Virus record (IMG/VR): IMGVR_UViG_3300022723_000282
Coordinates: 1 to 46,449 of that record
Source of the DNA: a virus
Reading direction: 5' to 3' (one strand)
DNA length: 46,449 nt
Shown: positions 18,830 to 33,708 of the stretch, in pieces
How the letters are laid out: each line of letters begins with the position of its first letter
How positions within the stretch are numbered: the first letter of the stretch is position 1
Notes under the pieces: generated by a model
What the model was told of the DNA's origin: nothing
Database searches by the model: none
What the model saw: the letters and a program-made list of their open reading frames with translations, nothing else
Made by a program: the position numbers and the translations under genes

Positions 18830-18904
18830 TGGTTGCGGAGACAGGATTCGAACCTGCGACCTCCTGGTAGTGAGCCAGGCGAGCTGCCGCTGCTCTACTC
18901 CGCG
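18830..18904 (-). tRNA. Initiator-type tRNA with CAC anticodon (GUG-reading)
   Basis: A 75-nt cloverleaf with encoded CCA, closely resembling bacterial initiator tRNA. Acceptor strands CGCGGAG and CTCCGCA leave the C1-A72 mismatch that marks initiators. The D stem has A11-U24, the variable loop is AGGTC, and the T loop is TTCGAAT. The anticodon loop is CUCACUA, giving anticodon CAC (reads GUG) instead of CAU. In the anticodon stem the usual three G-C pairs are reduced to two, with a U-A pair at 29-41. It could be an initiator for GUG starts, or a derived tRNA-Val. Position 37 is U, which is unusual. Confidence 0.85.
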
Positions 18905-24109: not shown

Positions 24110-24350
24110 CTGGTTCCTCGAGGAGGCGGAACCGGTCGTCAACCTGGCGCCGAACGATCAGCCTATCCAGCTGACGACCACCGTGGAGCATGTGCGCCTT
24201 GAGCAACTGCGGGAACGGGCCCGCGATTTCATCGACGTGGACAGCCCGCGCGCCAGATTCAATCTCTACGAGCTGCAGATTGATGCCGTGGCCGGCCTTC
24301 TCAACCGCGCCCGCCACTACTTTCGAGGGAGACCGCATTGCAAACCATAG
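24102..24350 (+). CDS. Hypothetical early protein, 82 residues
   Basis: Starts at GTG 24102, overlapping the end of the preceding gene, and overlaps the ParB-like gene by 13 bp. The sequence is acidic at the N-terminus (PDWFLEEAEPVVNLAPNDQ) and helical after residue 28 (VEHVRLEQLRERARDFI, LYELQIDAVAGLLNRARHYF). No recognised domain. The tight overlaps on both sides mean it is probably co-translated with the ParB-like protein and may act with it. Confidence 0.6.
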   Translation: MPDWFLEEAEPVVNLAPNDQPIQLTTTVEHVRLEQLRERARDFIDVDSPRARFNLYELQIDAVAGLLNRARHYFRGRPHCKP

Positions 24351-25972
24351 ACCTGAAACCCGGCGTCGTGACCGAGATCCCGATCGACCAGGTACTGCCC
24401 GATGCGCATCAACCGAGACAGACGTTTCGCCCGAAACCGCTCGACGAGCTCGCCGCAAACATCGCAGCCCGCGGCGTCCTTCAGGCAATCACCGTTGTTC
24501 CGTCGGGGCCAAACGAGTTTCTGATCAAGACTGGCGAGCGCCGCTGGCGGGCCAGCAAGGCGGCAGGCGACAGCAACGACCTGCTGATCGACCAGCTCGC
24601 CGAGAACAACCTTCGCGAGGATCTCGATCCCGTCGACCGTGCTACGGCGCTCAAGAAGCTGCGCGACAAGGGTTTGAGCCTCAAAGAGGTCGGCGCGCTG
24701 CTTGAACAGCATGGGATGACGATGTCGCGATCCGCGATATCGAACTCGCTACGCCTGCTCAAACTTCCGGAGGAAACCCTGGAACGTGTCCGTGCCGGCG
24801 AGCTCGTTGAGTCTGTCGCCCGGGAGTTGGTGGCGATCGCGGAGTATCCCGACATCGTCGACGAGATTTCGAAAGGCGCCGTCGAGGAGAAGTGGGAACG
24901 AGTCGATCCGGAGTACATTCGGTGGGCGATCGATGACGAGCTCGGCATCGTCTGCGAGCGCGTGCAGAAGGGCGACGGCTGCGAGAACTGTGAATGCATG
25001 CTTACCGTGACCGACGGCAATGGCAACAAGATCGGCTGGTGCAAGGACTCCGAAAAACTCAAGGCCAAGCGCGTCGACGCGCTCGCGCAAGTAGCCGGCA
25101 ACGACGGCGAAGACTCGGCCGAGACACCGAAGAAGAAAGCCGAGACGGATCCCGCGAAAGTTGCGCCTAAGAAGATCAAGCCAGCAAAAGGCGGTGCGGT
25201 GGCGCTCCAGCGCCGGAATTATGATTTGTACCACCGTCTGCGCTCAGCGAGCTTTGACACCGAGGCCTGCAACGATTGTCCGCACAACCACAACGCCTCG
25301 TATGACGGTGACAGCGAAAGAGCGGAGCGGACGTGCTTCTATCCGCCCTGCTACAACAACCTCGCCCGGCAGCACGCGAAGGCTGAGAAACGACGTGAGC
25401 GGATACTGGAGATCATCGATAACCAGCTGCTCCCGCACCTGGTTGATACCTGCAAGCAGCCTGTCGCCGAGACGATCGTCCTGCCATTGCTGGCCTATAT
25501 CGCGAGCGACTACCCGGTTGAGGGGACAGTCGTCGATCATGATCATCACTTCATGCGGCACTGCGCCGCACCGGGAAATTGGAGTGATGACTGTAGAAGG
25601 GCACTCGAGGCGCTGCCCGCAACACTCAATCGCGGCACGCTGACCGCTTATCTGAGCAGCGACCTTTCCGGGACGGACGCGGAATGCGTCGTTGAAGCTG
25701 CAATTCGCTCGCTCGATATTCCGCAACGTCGGGAGCTCGCGCTATATCTGTCGATCGAGATTGGATCGTTCTGGGAAACCAGTGACGACTACGTGAAGCT
25801 CTTTACGAAACCGGAGATTGTCGAGTTGATCGGCTACGCGTTCGATCCGCCTGATGTGCCGGCCGGCGAATGGCGTGATCGGCTCATGCTTCGTCCCGGG
25901 GTGCCGGACATGGTCCGCGAGCTCTGGGCCAGCCCGATCGAAAATATTCACCAGGCCGGTGACGAGCAATGA
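24338..25972 (+). CDS. ParB/RepB/Spo0J-family protein with Cys clusters
   Basis: A 544-residue protein starting at TTG 24338 (GAGGGAG upstream). Residues 10-100 form the ParB N-terminal domain, with PDAHQPRQTF, RGVLQAITV and the GERRWRA motif (66-72) that marks CTP-binding ParB clamps. Residues 113-140 form the ParB-type HTH (SLKEVGALLEQ, RSAISNSLRLLKLPEE). Cys clusters follow at about 206-235 (CENCEC) and 307-336 (CNDCPHN, CFYPPC), as in PRTRC-type ParB proteins, and would bind zinc. No ParA is seen. It may bind the TTTCGNNCGAAA sites spread through the window. One such site lies in its own codons 29-33. Confidence 0.85.
   Translation: MQTIDLKPGVVTEIPIDQVLPDAHQPRQTFRPKPLDELAANIAARGVLQAITVVPSGPNEFLIKTGERRWRASKAAGDSNDLLIDQLAENNLREDLDPVDRATALKKLRDKGLSLKEVGALLEQHGMTMSRSAISNSLRLLKLPEETLERVRAGELVESVARELVAIAEYPDIVDEISKGAVEEKWERVDPEYIRWAIDDELGIVCERVQKGDGCENCECMLTVTDGNGNKIGWCKDSEKLKAKRVDALAQVAGNDGEDSAETPKKKAETDPAKVAPKKIKPAKGGAVALQRRNYDLYHRLRSASFDTEACNDCPHNHNASYDGDSERAERTCFYPPCYNNLARQHAKAEKRRERILEIIDNQLLPHLVDTCKQPVAETIVLPLLAYIASDYPVEGTVVDHDHHFMRHCAAPGNWSDDCRRALEALPATLNRGTLTAYLSSDLSGTDAECVVEAAIRSLDIPQRRELALYLSIEIGSFWETSDDYVKLFTKPEIVELIGYAFDPPDVPAGEWRDRLMLRPGVPDMVRELWASPIENIHQAGDEQ
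24425..24436. repeat. TTTCGN2CGAAA palindrome, exact (centre CC)
   Basis: Extended GTTTCGCCCGAAAC at codons 29-33 of the ParB-like gene itself. The reading frame (TFRPKP) differs from the VSxET frame used at other sites, so the DNA sequence and not the peptide is what repeats. Confidence 0.8.
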
Positions 25973-29871: not shown

Positions 29872-30084
29872 ATGCCTGCCGCCGCCGCCACCGCTGAAAC
29901 GCTGATTTATCCGAAACGATGGATCAAGCTCGAGGCCTATTGCGCCCTGACCGGAGAGACAAAAAACGCCGTTGAGACGCGGGTTGCAAAGGGTCAGTGG
30001 GTCCGAGGCGTGCATGTGAAGGTCAAGAGTCGTAGGCTCTGGGTAAATCTTCCGGAGGCGGATCGATGGGTAGAGAGCGGTTGA
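29872..30084 (+). CDS. xis: Excisionase-like DNA-binding protein
   Basis: A 70-residue protein beginning at ATG 29872. Residues 15-66 form a small winged-helix of the phage excisionase type (KRWIKLEAYCALTGETKNAV, VAKGQWVRGVHVKVKSRRLWV). It overlaps the integrase start by 19 bp, the usual xis-int arrangement. It would bend att DNA and steer integrase toward excision. Confidence 0.75.
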   Translation: MPAAAATAETLIYPKRWIKLEAYCALTGETKNAVETRVAKGQWVRGVHVKVKSRRLWVNLPEADRWVESG

Positions 30085-31244
30085 AGAAGCTAAGCCCCGG
30101 CATTTACCTGCGACAGTACGCCTCTGGGAAGACGTCTATTCAGGTGCAGTTCTCGTACATGGGCGTCCGCTGCCGCGAGACGTTCACCGGTCTGGATCCG
30201 ACGAAGAAGTCGCACGTGAACATCGCCGCACATCGCCTGGGCGCGGTGAAGGACTCCATCCTGAAGGGCACGTTCAAGTATCACGAGCACTTTCCTGAAT
30301 CCCGGCGCGCATCGCTTTTCGGCCACGGGCTGTCCGCGAGGACAGTCCGCGACGTCGGTGATTCATGGCTCGATGACATGAAGCGGTCGAAACCGCACAG
30401 CACCTACTACTCGTACTGGAAGTGCACGAACAACTTCGTGTATCCCGAGCTCGGCAGCCTCCGGGTGCGTGATGTTAGCCCCGAGCATGTGCGCCGAATG
30501 TTCCGAAAGATGGATGTTTCGCTCAAAACCGCTCGCAACTATTCGATCCCGGTGAAGGCTATCTTCGAGCGCGCTGTCGAAGACGGGGATATCGAACGCA
30601 GCCCATTCGAGCGGGTCAACCTGCGGAACCTCATTCCGTACGAGAAGCGCCGCACCGACTACGAAGTAGACCCTTTCAACGAGACCGAGATATCCAAGAT
30701 ACTTGCGGCGGCGGAACAGCACCGGCCGGACTGGCGAAACTACATCGCCCTGGCCGTGTTCACCGGACTGCGTACGTCTGAGCTGTACGCGCTGCGTTGG
30801 AGCGACTGGACCGGCGACATCCTTCATGTGCAGCGCGCCCGCGTGGAGGGCCAGAACAAGATCACCAAGAACGTCACGAGCAACCGCGAGCATCAGCTCT
30901 CTCCGGCCGCGAAAGCCGCGCTCAAGCGTCAGCGCGCGCTGACGGCGTTCAACGATGAGATATTCTGGAATCCGAACACGAAGCGGCCGTTGACGCGCTA
31001 CGAGCCGTCACAGCGAGCCCTGGACTACTGCTGCAAGAAGGCCGGCGTGCGCCGCAGAATCCAGTACCAGACACGCCACACCTACGCGAGCAACATGCTC
31101 AGCCAGGGCGCGAGCCCTCACTTCGTCGCAGCGCAAATGGGCCACAAATCGGTCCTGACGCTGTTTCGCCACTATGGCCGCTGGGTGGAGGGAAGTGCCA
31201 CGCACGTGCCCCTTGCCGGCCTCACGTTTGGAGAAGGTCAATGA
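30066..31244 (+). CDS. int: Tyrosine site-specific integrase
   Basis: A 392-residue phage integrase. Residues 1-75 look like the DUF3596-type arm-binding domain (SPGIYLRQYASGKTSIQVQF). Residues 85-185 form the core-binding domain. The catalytic domain shows R236 in GLRTSELYALRW, R337 in YQTRHTYAS, H360 in MGHKS and nucleophile Y370 in RHYGRW. The usual His of the HxxR box is Tyr334, a variant seen in this integrase branch. A tRNA-Leu-like att core follows 17 bp after the stop. It would insert the phage into a host tRNA-Leu gene. Confidence 0.95.
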   Translation: MGRERLKKLSPGIYLRQYASGKTSIQVQFSYMGVRCRETFTGLDPTKKSHVNIAAHRLGAVKDSILKGTFKYHEHFPESRRASLFGHGLSARTVRDVGDSWLDDMKRSKPHSTYYSYWKCTNNFVYPELGSLRVRDVSPEHVRRMFRKMDVSLKTARNYSIPVKAIFERAVEDGDIERSPFERVNLRNLIPYEKRRTDYEVDPFNETEISKILAAAEQHRPDWRNYIALAVFTGLRTSELYALRWSDWTGDILHVQRARVEGQNKITKNVTSNREHQLSPAAKAALKRQRALTAFNDEIFWNPNTKRPLTRYEPSQRALDYCCKKAGVRRRIQYQTRHTYASNMLSQGASPHFVAAQMGHKSVLTLFRHYGRWVEGSATHVPLAGLTFGEGQ

Positions 31245-31261
31245 AAACGAATACTTATGCA

Positions 31262-31298
31262 GGTAGTGTAGGAGGTTCAAGTCCTCTTCTCGGCACCA
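31262..31298 (+). other. att: Attachment core: 3' end of a tRNA-Leu
   Basis: This stretch matches a tRNA 3' half. The T stem GGAGG/CCTCT flanks loop TTCAAGT (31271-31287), followed by acceptor strand TCTCGGC, then A and CCA ending at 31298. The pattern fits tRNA-Leu. No 5' half is present; the integrase gene lies there instead. This is the usual look of attP or of the phage-side attachment joint. Confidence 0.8.
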
Positions 31299-31310
31299 AA
31301 TCAGCATCAG

Positions 31311-31362
31311 AAAGCCCTTCAGGATTCAGGCGCTTAGCCGCTGAATTGAAGGGCTTTTTTTC
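31311..31362 (+). terminator. Intrinsic terminator after int/att
   Basis: An 11-bp perfect outer stem (AAAGCCCTTCA at 31311-31321 with TGAAGGGCTTT at 31347-31357) encloses a second 6-bp stem. It runs into a T tract at 31355-31361. It would end the early operon transcript and, in a chromosome, the tRNA-Leu transcript. Confidence 0.8.
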
Positions 31363-31686: not shown

Positions 31687-31746
31687 GGGAGCGCGGCGAG
31701 CCAGTGGCCCATCGATAGCCAAAACGCTGACGACCGCCGCGCTCCC
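31687..31746 (+). repeat. Hairpin element E1
   Basis: Sixty bases. Perfect 12-bp arms GGGAGCGCGGCG and CGCCGCGCTCCC enclose a 36-nt core built as AGCCA-N10-GAT-AGCCA-N10-GAC. No T tract follows, so it is not an ordinary terminator. The arms are identical to those of E5, 1.8 kb away, while the N10 parts differ. Confidence 0.9.
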
Positions 31747-31755
31747 TCCTTACAA

Positions 31756-31815
31756 GCCAGTGGGCCGTGCCATGACGAGCCTGACAGCCAACTCGAGGGC
31801 GACCGGCCCACTGGC
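31756..31815 (+). repeat. Hairpin element E2
   Basis: Sixty bases, nine bases after E1. Perfect 12-bp arms GCCAGTGGGCCG and CGGCCCACTGGC surround a 36-nt core TGCCA-N10-GAC-AGCCA-N10-GAC. The arms differ completely from E1 yet remain self-complementary. The CAGTGGG part recurs in E4. Confidence 0.9.
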
Positions 31816-31830
31816 ACCTAACAGAAATAC

Positions 31831-31888
31831 GCCGCCCGCCGAGCCACACGCTAAGCGACAGCCAGATTGAGGCCGACCGGCGGGCGGC
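31831..31888 (+). repeat. Hairpin element E3
   Basis: Fifty-eight bases, 15 bases after E2. Perfect 11-bp arms GCCGCCCGCCG and CGGCGGGCGGC enclose a 36-nt core AGCCA-N10-GAC-AGCCA-N10-GAC. The arms pair with those of E6 in type. Confidence 0.9.
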
Positions 31889-31936
31889 ACCTTCACCACG
31901 AACTCCGATCCGGAGCCATAGCAGAGGAAACAGAAA

Positions 31937-32596
31937 ATGACCGATACACGAATCACAGATCAACTCCGACACGCTGGCGTCGCCGTCGGCAGGGCCCGAC
32001 TGAACTGTCTGGTCGAACATGCCTGGAAGCGCGCAGACGGAAAGATACCGACCGCCATGCGATACCTTGAGATGGCCGTTCGCGAAGACAGGGAAGCCCT
32101 GCTGGCGCTGATCGGTGACACCACAATTCGACGCCGTGTAGAGGTCACAATCCGACAGAAGTCGGATGCCACCAAATTATCAGTGGGTGCGGCGAGCCAG
32201 AGCGTCTTCGACAGCCAGGGAATCGCGGACCGTTTACCCACTGACCCTACACCGCCACGCAGTGTCGCGCCGAAGAAGCCGGCGCCCGCAAGCCGGATAT
32301 CGAAGGTTGCCGCCCGGAGCGTTGCCCGCAGCGTATTCGACGAGCGCGTAATGGCCAACTTCAACAAGACGTACGGCGAGATTACGCAGTACGACTACCT
32401 CAACCTCTGCGTCGTCAGCGGCGTCACGTCGACGCTGAAAAAGCACCTGGACAAGGTCCGCTGGCGCGGCCTGCACGTTCCACTGAAAGACTTCGCCGAT
32501 CCCGCCGTGATAGCGGCGGCCCGTGATGAGGTCGAATCCGTCAAGCAGGCCAGCAGCCAGGCGGTTAAGCGGCGCTCGCTGGAGCAATCGTCATGA
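31937..32596 (+). CDS. Hypothetical protein, first gene of the IS110-like operon
   Basis: A 219-residue basic protein with GAGGAAACAG upstream of ATG 31937. Residues 1-60 are helical (RARLNCLVEHAWKRADGKIP). Residues 82-103 are encoded by hairpin element E4 and read as SQSVFDSQGIADR in their centre. Residues 128-205 are helical and conserved-looking (FDERVMANFNKTYGEITQYD, LCVVSGVTSTLKKHLDKVRW). No domain recognised. Its stop overlaps the next ATG (ATGA), so it is co-translated with the IS110-like protein and probably works with it. Confidence 0.65.
   Translation: MTDTRITDQLRHAGVAVGRARLNCLVEHAWKRADGKIPTAMRYLEMAVREDREALLALIGDTTIRRRVEVTIRQKSDATKLSVGAASQSVFDSQGIADRLPTDPTPPRSVAPKKPAPASRISKVAARSVARSVFDERVMANFNKTYGEITQYDYLNLCVVSGVTSTLKKHLDKVRWRGLHVPLKDFADPAVIAAARDEVESVKQASSQAVKRRSLEQSS
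32180..32244 (+). repeat. Hairpin element E4 (inside coding sequence)
   Basis: Sixty-five bases with the standard 36-nt core at 32195-32230 (AGCCA-N10-GAC-AGCCA-N10-GAC). The arms start TCAGTGGGT and end ACCCACTGA, 9 bp, followed by mismatches and then four more pairs, two of them G-U. The G-U pairs suggest an RNA structure read from the plus strand. Confidence 0.8.
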
Positions 32597-33708
32597 GTGG
32601 GTTCGCGGACAATATCGATAAAATCCGGCTCAACTACCGGCTGGCGAAGTTTGCTGAGAAAGAGCGCTCGGCGCTGGATCAAAAGCTCGTTTCGTTCGGG
32701 CGGATACACCTCACGAACTGGCTGCCCGATATGGACGAGAAGGGGAGGAAGCGACTCAACACCGCAGCCCTGCAGGCCGTGAAAGAGATTCAGAAAGGCA
32801 TCGAGGCAGACCCGGAAAAACTCTCGAAAGTAGCAGCGACGCTGACATCCTCGCTGCACGAGGATCTGGCGCCAATGGTGATTGGCTTGCACCCGGCCCG
32901 GCAGTCGCTCGAGATGGAGCGCAAGCAGAGTCGGAAGCGGGTTGAGAGTTCTGTCAAAAGCCTGCCGGCATGGGAGCGCCTGAAGCACATCAAGGGCTTT
33001 AGCGTATGGCACCTGGGCTGCATCATCGGCGAGTTCGGCGACCTGACAGACGACATTGTTCCGACCGAAGCACGTGAGCCAGGCAAGCGGTACTCCGGCG
33101 TGCGTCGTATCTACAAGCGGTTTGGGCTGGCGCCGGACAGCGCCTATCCTAGAGGTGAGAAGCGCACGGGCGCGATGGTGCCGCGGTCGACCCGGGGTCG
33201 GATCATCGGCATCATATTCGACCCGCTGCTGAAACATCAGTGGGCCGCCGAGCGCGGGCCGAACGGCGAGAAGCTGAAGGAAAGCGAGAAAGGCCGCTCC
33301 GAGAACATCCCGGCCCACCCGACCGGCCCCTACGGCGTCGTGTACGGCGAGACGAAGGCCAGGCAGCTTGCCGCAGGGCGCAGCAACGGGCACGCCTTTG
33401 CGCTCGCCAGGCGGACGATGGTGAAGGCCCTGATTCACGACGTCCACAAGGCATGGCACGGACAGCCATTGACATATCAATTTGAAGGGAGCGCGGCGAG
33501 CCATGTGATGAGCGCCAGCCGGCCTAAATTCGACCGCCGCGCTCCCGACTTTGAACGTAGCCGCCCGACGAGCCATGGTGATGGCGCGAGCCATATTGAA
33601 GCCGACCGGCGGGCGGCTATCCCTCTCATCACCGGGCCTGGTGATGTAGTGGGCTGCAATGCAGACGAGATACGGGATCAATTAGAGAACCTGATTGAGA
33701 CGGGATAG
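32593..33708 (+). CDS. IS110/IS116-type transposase-domain phage protein
   Basis: A 371-residue protein. Residues 1-115 are helical with no RuvC-like DEDD start, so the usual IS110 catalytic half is not obvious. Residues 124-185 match the IS116/IS110/IS902 C-terminal domain in pattern: LPAWERLKHIKGFSVWHLG, IIGEFGDL, then IYKRFGLAP. They are followed by GPYGVVYGETKARQL and RRTMVKALIHDVHKAWHG, as in a phage-borne branch of the family. Residues 299-342 are encoded by hairpin elements E5 and E6. It may bind or rearrange those hairpins. Catalysis is unproven. Confidence 0.65.
   Translation: MSGFADNIDKIRLNYRLAKFAEKERSALDQKLVSFGRIHLTNWLPDMDEKGRKRLNTAALQAVKEIQKGIEADPEKLSKVAATLTSSLHEDLAPMVIGLHPARQSLEMERKQSRKRVESSVKSLPAWERLKHIKGFSVWHLGCIIGEFGDLTDDIVPTEAREPGKRYSGVRRIYKRFGLAPDSAYPRGEKRTGAMVPRSTRGRIIGIIFDPLLKHQWAAERGPNGEKLKESEKGRSENIPAHPTGPYGVVYGETKARQLAAGRSNGHAFALARRTMVKALIHDVHKAWHGQPLTYQFEGSAASHVMSASRPKFDRRAPDFERSRPTSHGDGASHIEADRRAAIPLITGPGDVVGCNADEIRDQLENLIETG
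33487..33546 (+). repeat. Hairpin element E5 (in 3' end of IS110-like gene)
   Basis: Sixty bases. Arms GGGAGCGCGGCG and CGCCGCGCTCCC are identical to E1. The 36-nt core is AGCCA-N10-GCC-AGCCG-N10-GAC. In the reading frame it encodes SHVMSASRPKFDR. Confidence 0.9.
33559..33618 (+). repeat. Hairpin element E6 (in 3' end of IS110-like gene)
   Basis: Sixty bases, 12 after E5. Arms AGCCGCCCGACG and CGGCGGGCGGCT pair at 11 of 12 positions. The core is AGCCA-N10-GCG-AGCCA-N10-GAC and encodes SHGDGASHIEADR. The 3' half is nearly identical to that of E3. Confidence 0.9.

Follow-up and report, generated by a model that had tools for sequence, protein, structure and literature searches.

A hairpin array around and inside the gene of a nuclease-less Nop-domain protein points to a TIGR-TasA guide system in a temperate phage

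The stretch of DNA analysed here, called the window, comprises all 46,449 nucleotides (nt) of the viral IMG/VR record IMGVR_UViG_3300022723_000282. At the locus under study it carries two overlapping genes and six hairpin elements, E1 to E6, which together have the appearance of a TIGR-Tas system (Table 1). An earlier reading of the sequence, the original prediction, had described the six elements, and their distribution was given correctly: three precede the operon, one lies in the first gene and two in the 3′ end of the second gene. All were found where they had been placed, and all on the plus strand. Their core can be written as CGWGCCA-N10-GNNAGCCR-N10-GACCG. This motif, which was derived from the same data that it was counted in, has six exact matches in the window, confined to this locus, against a chance expectation of 0.32 even if three mismatches are allowed.

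Table 1. Features of the locus in the window and examples of partner genes at other loci
Feature	Position	Strand	Remarks
E1, stem-loop TIGR unit	31687..31746	+	spacers GTGGCCCAT / AAACGCTGA
E2, stem-loop TIGR unit	31756..31815	+	spacers TGACGAGCC / ACTCGAGGG
E3, stem-loop TIGR unit	31831..31888	+	spacers CACGCTAAG / GATTGAGGC
Gene 1, partner protein, 219 amino acids	31937..32596	+	weak member of a helical family; ATGA overlap with tasA
E4, TIGR unit with imperfect stem	about 32181..32244	+	in the gene 1 linker, codons 82-104; spacers GAGCGTCTT / GGGAATCGC
tasA, nuclease-less Nop-domain Tas protein, 371 amino acids	32593..33708	+	residues 1-297 structured, 298-355 disordered
E5, stem-loop TIGR unit	33487..33546	+	in frame in the tasA C-terminal tail; arms those of E1; spacers TGTGATGAG / GCCTAAATT
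E6, stem-loop TIGR unit	33557..33620	+	in frame in the tasA C-terminal tail; arms related to those of E3; spacers TGGTGATGG / TATTGAAGC
Partner genes at other loci (examples)	L058:4313-4837, L055:4106-4627, L047:4085-4621, L061:3530-4231, others		

Self-complementary arms of 11-13 base pairs (bp) had been predicted for every element. Five of them have such arms, with stems of 11-14 bp: the arms form 11-12 bp in E1, E2, E3 and E5 and match at 13 of 14 positions in E6, and the folding of these five is far better than that of shuffled sequences (z -3.2 to -5.2). The palindromic arms exist only in part in E4, where the outer stem has 9 bp (TCAGTGGGT/ACCCACTGA) and the inner part is irregular. That the arms vary and still stay complementary was confirmed, with 55 of 60 positions paired within the elements; arms swapped between elements pair at a mean of 6.7 of 10, a value inflated by the arms which E1 has in common with E5 and E3 with E6. 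The stems covary in other genomes as well. The core AGCCA-N10-GAC, reported as constant, is a shared pattern with variable anchors (GAT in E1, TGCCA in E2, GCC/AGCCG in E5, GCG in E6), and its variable 10 nt are a 9-nt spacer followed by a pyrimidine belonging to box D. AGCCA-N10-GAC is the box C/D pattern CCA-N9-YG. The 36-nt core is composed of box C (CCA), 9-nt spacer A, box D (YG), a short loop, a second box C, 9-nt spacer B and a second box D, and is closed in each element by a variable but self-complementary stem. A search of the hairpins in Rfam gave no match, and the exact core pattern has eight matches in IMG/VR, none of them with paired arms, which is the chance level.

The product of the second gene (P0001) had been called IS110-like. 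It is related to the RNA-binding part of IS110 proteins; the RuvC/DEDD domain is missing, and a profile of its family finds TasR and TasH. P0001 itself has no match in Pfam and a faint one to PHROG 4285 ('transposase'), and neither a scan for close relatives with P0001 alone nor strict protein-level searches of plasmids and phages gave a match. The first relative was found in the Rhizobium phage RHph_X2_25 (29% identity), where the gene is also ringed by hairpins, and identity to family members is 20-30%. When a profile built from 48 members, including the window protein, was searched against the PDB at E<=10, the only matches were TasR (9mty, 2.1e-22) and TasH (5.1e-7), and no IS110 transposase was among them. 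AlphaFold models the window protein as a Nop-type core, for the most part predicted with confidence, that has a coiled coil starting at residue 2 and is followed by an unstructured tail (Table 1). TasR and TasH are the best PDB folds for this model (probability 1.00, E 1.4e-3 to 5.6e-3), followed by the IS110 recombinases IS621 and ISCro4 and then, weakly, by Prp31 and the box C/D protein Nop5. The resemblance to IS110 is real, since the Nop domain is common to TIGR, IS110 and small nucleolar ribonucleoprotein (snoRNP) proteins (PMC12045711), and by this kinship the original prediction had pointed in the right direction with the term RNA-guided. No Pfam nuclease domain (RuvC/DEDD, HNH) was detected in P0001 or the family members, and the model is accounted for by the Nop core and the disordered tail. 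Because it is without a RuvC/DEDD or HNH domain, the 371-residue protein is TasA, the nuclease-less Tas.

The predicted association of hairpin arrays with this protein family was borne out in other genomes. An alignment of the window protein and rhizobial proteins, used as query, recovered 51 loci in IMG/VR and six more in bacterial genomes or metagenome-assembled genomes (MAGs), including Rhizobium esperanzae SEMIA 4089, Shinella sumterensis, Metarhizobium album and a Verrucomicrobiaceae MAG. With a generic unit scanner, the 51 loci gave 198 units sharing the strand of tas and 6 on the opposite one; shuffled sequence gave 2. A scan of 25 phage genomes, 1.32 Mb in all, placed 159 same-strand units at most 3.5 kb from tas and 3 nearby on the opposite strand, compared with 14 mostly irregular unit-like matches away from tas. 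The bias of selecting on stems was removed by a core-only box C/D search in which the stems were ignored; here 215 matches near tas are on its strand and 40 on the opposite one. The stems of these near, same-strand matches pair at 5.9 of 8 positions, against 2.9-3.1 in the other matches and 3.3 when left and right stems of different units are recombined. The base composition of 210 units is CCA-N9-YG twice, with 0.00-0.10 bits at the 18 spacer positions; the scanner required the CC dinucleotides and favoured the Gs, while the A of CCA and the pyrimidine of YG were free. Up to 13 dual-spacer hairpins occur per locus, around and inside genes, and loci without the 10-8-10 spacing possess stem-loops of their own, with loops of 33-39 nt and a locus-specific loop repeat.

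Spacers and stems behave differently. In 76 pairs of units with stems at least 80% identical, spacer identity is 0.26, equal to that of unrelated units. Aligned rhizobial loci have identical stems and linkers and entirely different spacers, and within the window E1/E5 and E3/E6 have stems in common but not spacers. As judged from these sequences, the stem is a stable frame and the spacers are its replaceable content. A separate case is the array at L024:244-850, where four units with nearly the same stem and different spacers follow each other in the tasA frame at exact intervals of 183 bp (61 codons). It looks like a tandem duplication of a unit with its coding linker, the spacers having since diverged completely.

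Hairpins, boxes, spacer hypervariability, Tas homology and genetic linkage therefore lead us to identify the locus, with a probability of roughly 0.88, as a TIGR-TasA guide system with a stem-loop array, carried by a temperate phage. Such a system is of a known kind and not a transposon. The view that it had not yet been described has to be given up, as PMC12045711 reports stem-loop arrays in two Tas clades, including the solo-Nop TasA. Some results weigh against this identification: E4 folds no better than its shuffles (z -0.8), P0001 by itself is too divergent for a sequence match in Pfam or the PDB and needs the family profile, a search for a sigma-70-like promoter at the locus found none, and no target was found for any spacer pair tested, DNA targeting being inferred for this clade.

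If the TIGR-TasA identification is right, one transcript would carry E1 to E3, gene 1 with E4, and tasA with E5 and E6. TasA would bind the box C/D pairs and each hairpin would be released as one dual-spacer guide (tigRNA); the processing of units into single hairpins was demonstrated for another TasA (PMC12045711). A TasA dimer would hold both box C/D pairs of one guide, and the ribonucleoprotein is expected to open 18 bp of DNA, with spacer A on one strand and spacer B on the other, as was demonstrated for TasR. The bound, nuclease-free complex could then block transcription or replication, or bend the DNA. Since TasA has no nuclease domain, its most likely effect is not cutting but a block of transcription or replication at sites that belong to rival mobile DNA or to the host.

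Two features of the family are absent from the main text of PMC12045711: a partner gene, and guides within reading frames. There, TasA is presented without clear protein associations apart from an occasional ParB operon, arrays are placed beside the gene, and in-frame units go unmentioned. In our set, 45 of 62 other loci have a gene of the partner family adjoining tasA in the same orientation, and with one exception it lies upstream. The family consists of phage proteins of about 160-270 amino acids, predicted to be all-helical, and has no convincing relative in Pfam, in PHROG or in a PDB fold search. The 4-nt overlap seen between gene 1 and tasA occurs likewise in seven other loci. With the TIGR TasA-TasParB operon in mind, a ParB match of gene 1 was looked for and none was found, the operon partner being gene 1. 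The window does encode a ParB-like partition protein (24338-25972, PHROG 4715), 7 kb from tasA and outside its operon.

At 14 loci the two genes adjoin or overlap, and there the stretch from the coupled start codon to the Nop domain contains 43 in-frame units. It might be argued that these frames are open by chance over non-coding arrays and that the true tasA start follows the hairpins, all the more as the translation of the units is predicted from open reading frames, the family frames were picked for openness, and the tail encoded by E5 and E6 is predicted to be disordered. This is rather improbable in our view. Across 1,721 codons, in frames which had been picked for openness, there is no stop in the tasA frame compared with 37 and 74 in the other two, and at the observed stop frequency the chance that an average extension (about 120 codons) stays open is a few per cent. 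Moreover, in 17 loci the upstream tasA start and the partner stop overlap, the extent being 4, 8 or 11 nt, and E4 has collinear parts of gene 1 on both sides. In-frame guides are most numerous in the Verrucomicrobiaceae MAG (L066, JAIXZA010000150.1, 5185-5839), where 13 units occur and seven to eight of them lie in the tasA reading frame, after its ATGA start and ahead of the Nop domain. Guides excised from a coding mRNA would reduce the output of TasA. We tentatively propose, as a possibility with the odds against it, a two-gene TIGR subtype with hairpins in the frames of effector and partner, in which excision of a guide destroys the TasA message and the partner serves guide processing, loading or spacer renewal. 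If this is true, guides embedded in reading frames would be a built-in switch balancing guides against effector.

Integrases are encoded by 14 of 23 other phages with tas. Of the 10 phages having an S24 repressor, 7 carry it no more than 3 kb from tas, mostly members of one related rhizobial group. Temperate phages are therefore the carriers of the module, which often sits in their lysogeny region. In the window it is preceded by an integrase (30066-31244), with an att-like tRNA end in between. This segment (31256-31362), directly after the integrase, holds the 3′-terminal part of a tRNA gene (AGGAGGTTCAAGTCCTCTTCTCGGCACCA) and then a terminator-like hairpin; it is probably the phage attachment site, which suggests that the contig is the phage form and not a prophage with host flanks.

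Such surroundings, together with the missing nuclease, would also suit a TasA that acts on its own phage, with guides that regulate phage genes or aid the integrase by bending DNA, as speculated in PMC12045711. We consider this unlikely: complete spacer turnover among close relatives does not fit a conserved self-regulation, and self-matches of the spacer pairs do not exceed the control. The target was defined as spacer A plus the reverse complement of spacer B on the top strand, contiguous or 1-2 bp apart (18-bp target), a geometry derived in this analysis as the one that 8-nt 3′ overhangs require. Within the window, matches of spacers taken as 10+10 nt equalled the permuted control, and the same holds for 9+9 nt with gaps of 0-2 in the 25 phage genomes (that of the window and 24 others) in comparison with permuted spacer pairs.

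Targets in other DNA were not found either. In four host genomes the best spacer-pair match is 16 nt and no target was seen. In 299 Rhizobiaceae genomes, where chance alone would give about two, there is one perfect 18-mer, and its chromosomal surroundings are ordinary. A phage database searched with 9+9 nt spacer pairs gave no match, an earlier search with 10+10 nt being a poor test, and IMG/VR contained no target for the spacer pairs of E1, E3 and E5; most possible targets lie outside the collections searched. The lack of self-targets and the fast spacer change fit an action of TIGR-TasA against other DNA, without proving it. We regard a role against other mobile DNA as about an even bet.

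The assignment of the locus to an IS110-type transposon or a derivative of it, with hairpins that are bridge-RNA-like or mobilised by the protein, draws on weak Transposase_20 (Pfam) and PHROG 4285 matches among family members and on the appearance of IS621 and ISCro4 among the fold matches. It is very unlikely, because the catalytic RuvC/DEDD domain is missing and because, by sequence as by fold, IS110 comes far behind TasR and TasH. Each locus has many units with fixed stems and changing spacers, element ends were not seen, and unit-like matches away from tas are limited to the 14 stray ones mentioned above. There is no sign of the mobilisation of hairpins that had originally been envisaged. 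Inert palindromic repeats (REP/RUP-like or attC-like sites) that spread near the gene by chance can be similar in size and may lie in coding sequence, but this hardly deserves credence given the strand bias of 198 to 6, the near-absence of units elsewhere in the same genomes and random spacers between fixed box C/D motifs, where REP and attC families conserve sequence. The IS110, attC-like and REP-like identities were thus dropped on domain, strand-bias and spacer evidence. As a side observation, phage proteins filed under PHROG 4285 ('transposase, integration and excision') include TasA proteins, and therefore phage annotation pipelines probably mislabel many TIGR systems.

Among the closest known systems is the TIGR-TasA stem-loop array of a Peromyscus leucopus gut contig with 13 units (PMC12045711). 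Both have a solo-Nop effector with a coiled coil, dual spacers (8-12 nt) between box C and box D, variable palindromic stems replacing the edge repeats, and several subarrays. The family described here differs from the main-text description of that system by a conserved partner gene, which overlaps tasA in part of the family, and by units in frame inside tasA or the partner gene. TasR and TasH (PDB 9mty; 9w02, 21kl) share a homologous Nop domain, and TasR guides, with box C CCA, box D UG and 9-nt spacers, have the pattern of the units found here; in contrast to the nuclease-less TasA with stem-loop units, they possess RuvC or HNH nuclease domains and dual-repeat arrays. With IS110 (IS621, ISCro4) and its bridge RNA, a related Nop-type RNA-binding region and a two-guide logic are in common, whereas a DEDD/RuvC catalytic domain and element ends are lacking here and many guides stand in place of one bridge RNA. 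Box C/D snoRNPs and Prp31 (Nop5 family) share the Nop fold and tandem guides flanked by boxes C and D, but their functions are RNA methylation or splicing, and they use a K-turn and an L7Ae-type partner; nothing of the kind was seen here.

PMC12045711 counts as unresolved what the native targets are, where spacers come from, how guides mature and what nuclease-less TasA does, largely because most systems are metagenomic. The same system is now available in named, culturable settings, namely a sequenced Sinorhizobium phage and prophages of Rhizobium esperanzae, Shinella and Metarhizobium, with aligned loci in which stems are kept and spacers changed. This opens spacer turnover, in-frame guides and the partner gene to direct tests.

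Two minor observations may be added. Similar stem-loop units with longer loop repeats (CGCCTGAAAAGGCCA or based on TGGCGG...GCCGCC) are present at the tas loci L036:273-549, L044:4828-5830 and L022:2502-2894, which possibly form a graded series between stem-loop and dual-repeat arrays. In the window, a phage-borne tRNA-Val with the anticodon CAC is encoded at 18830-18904.
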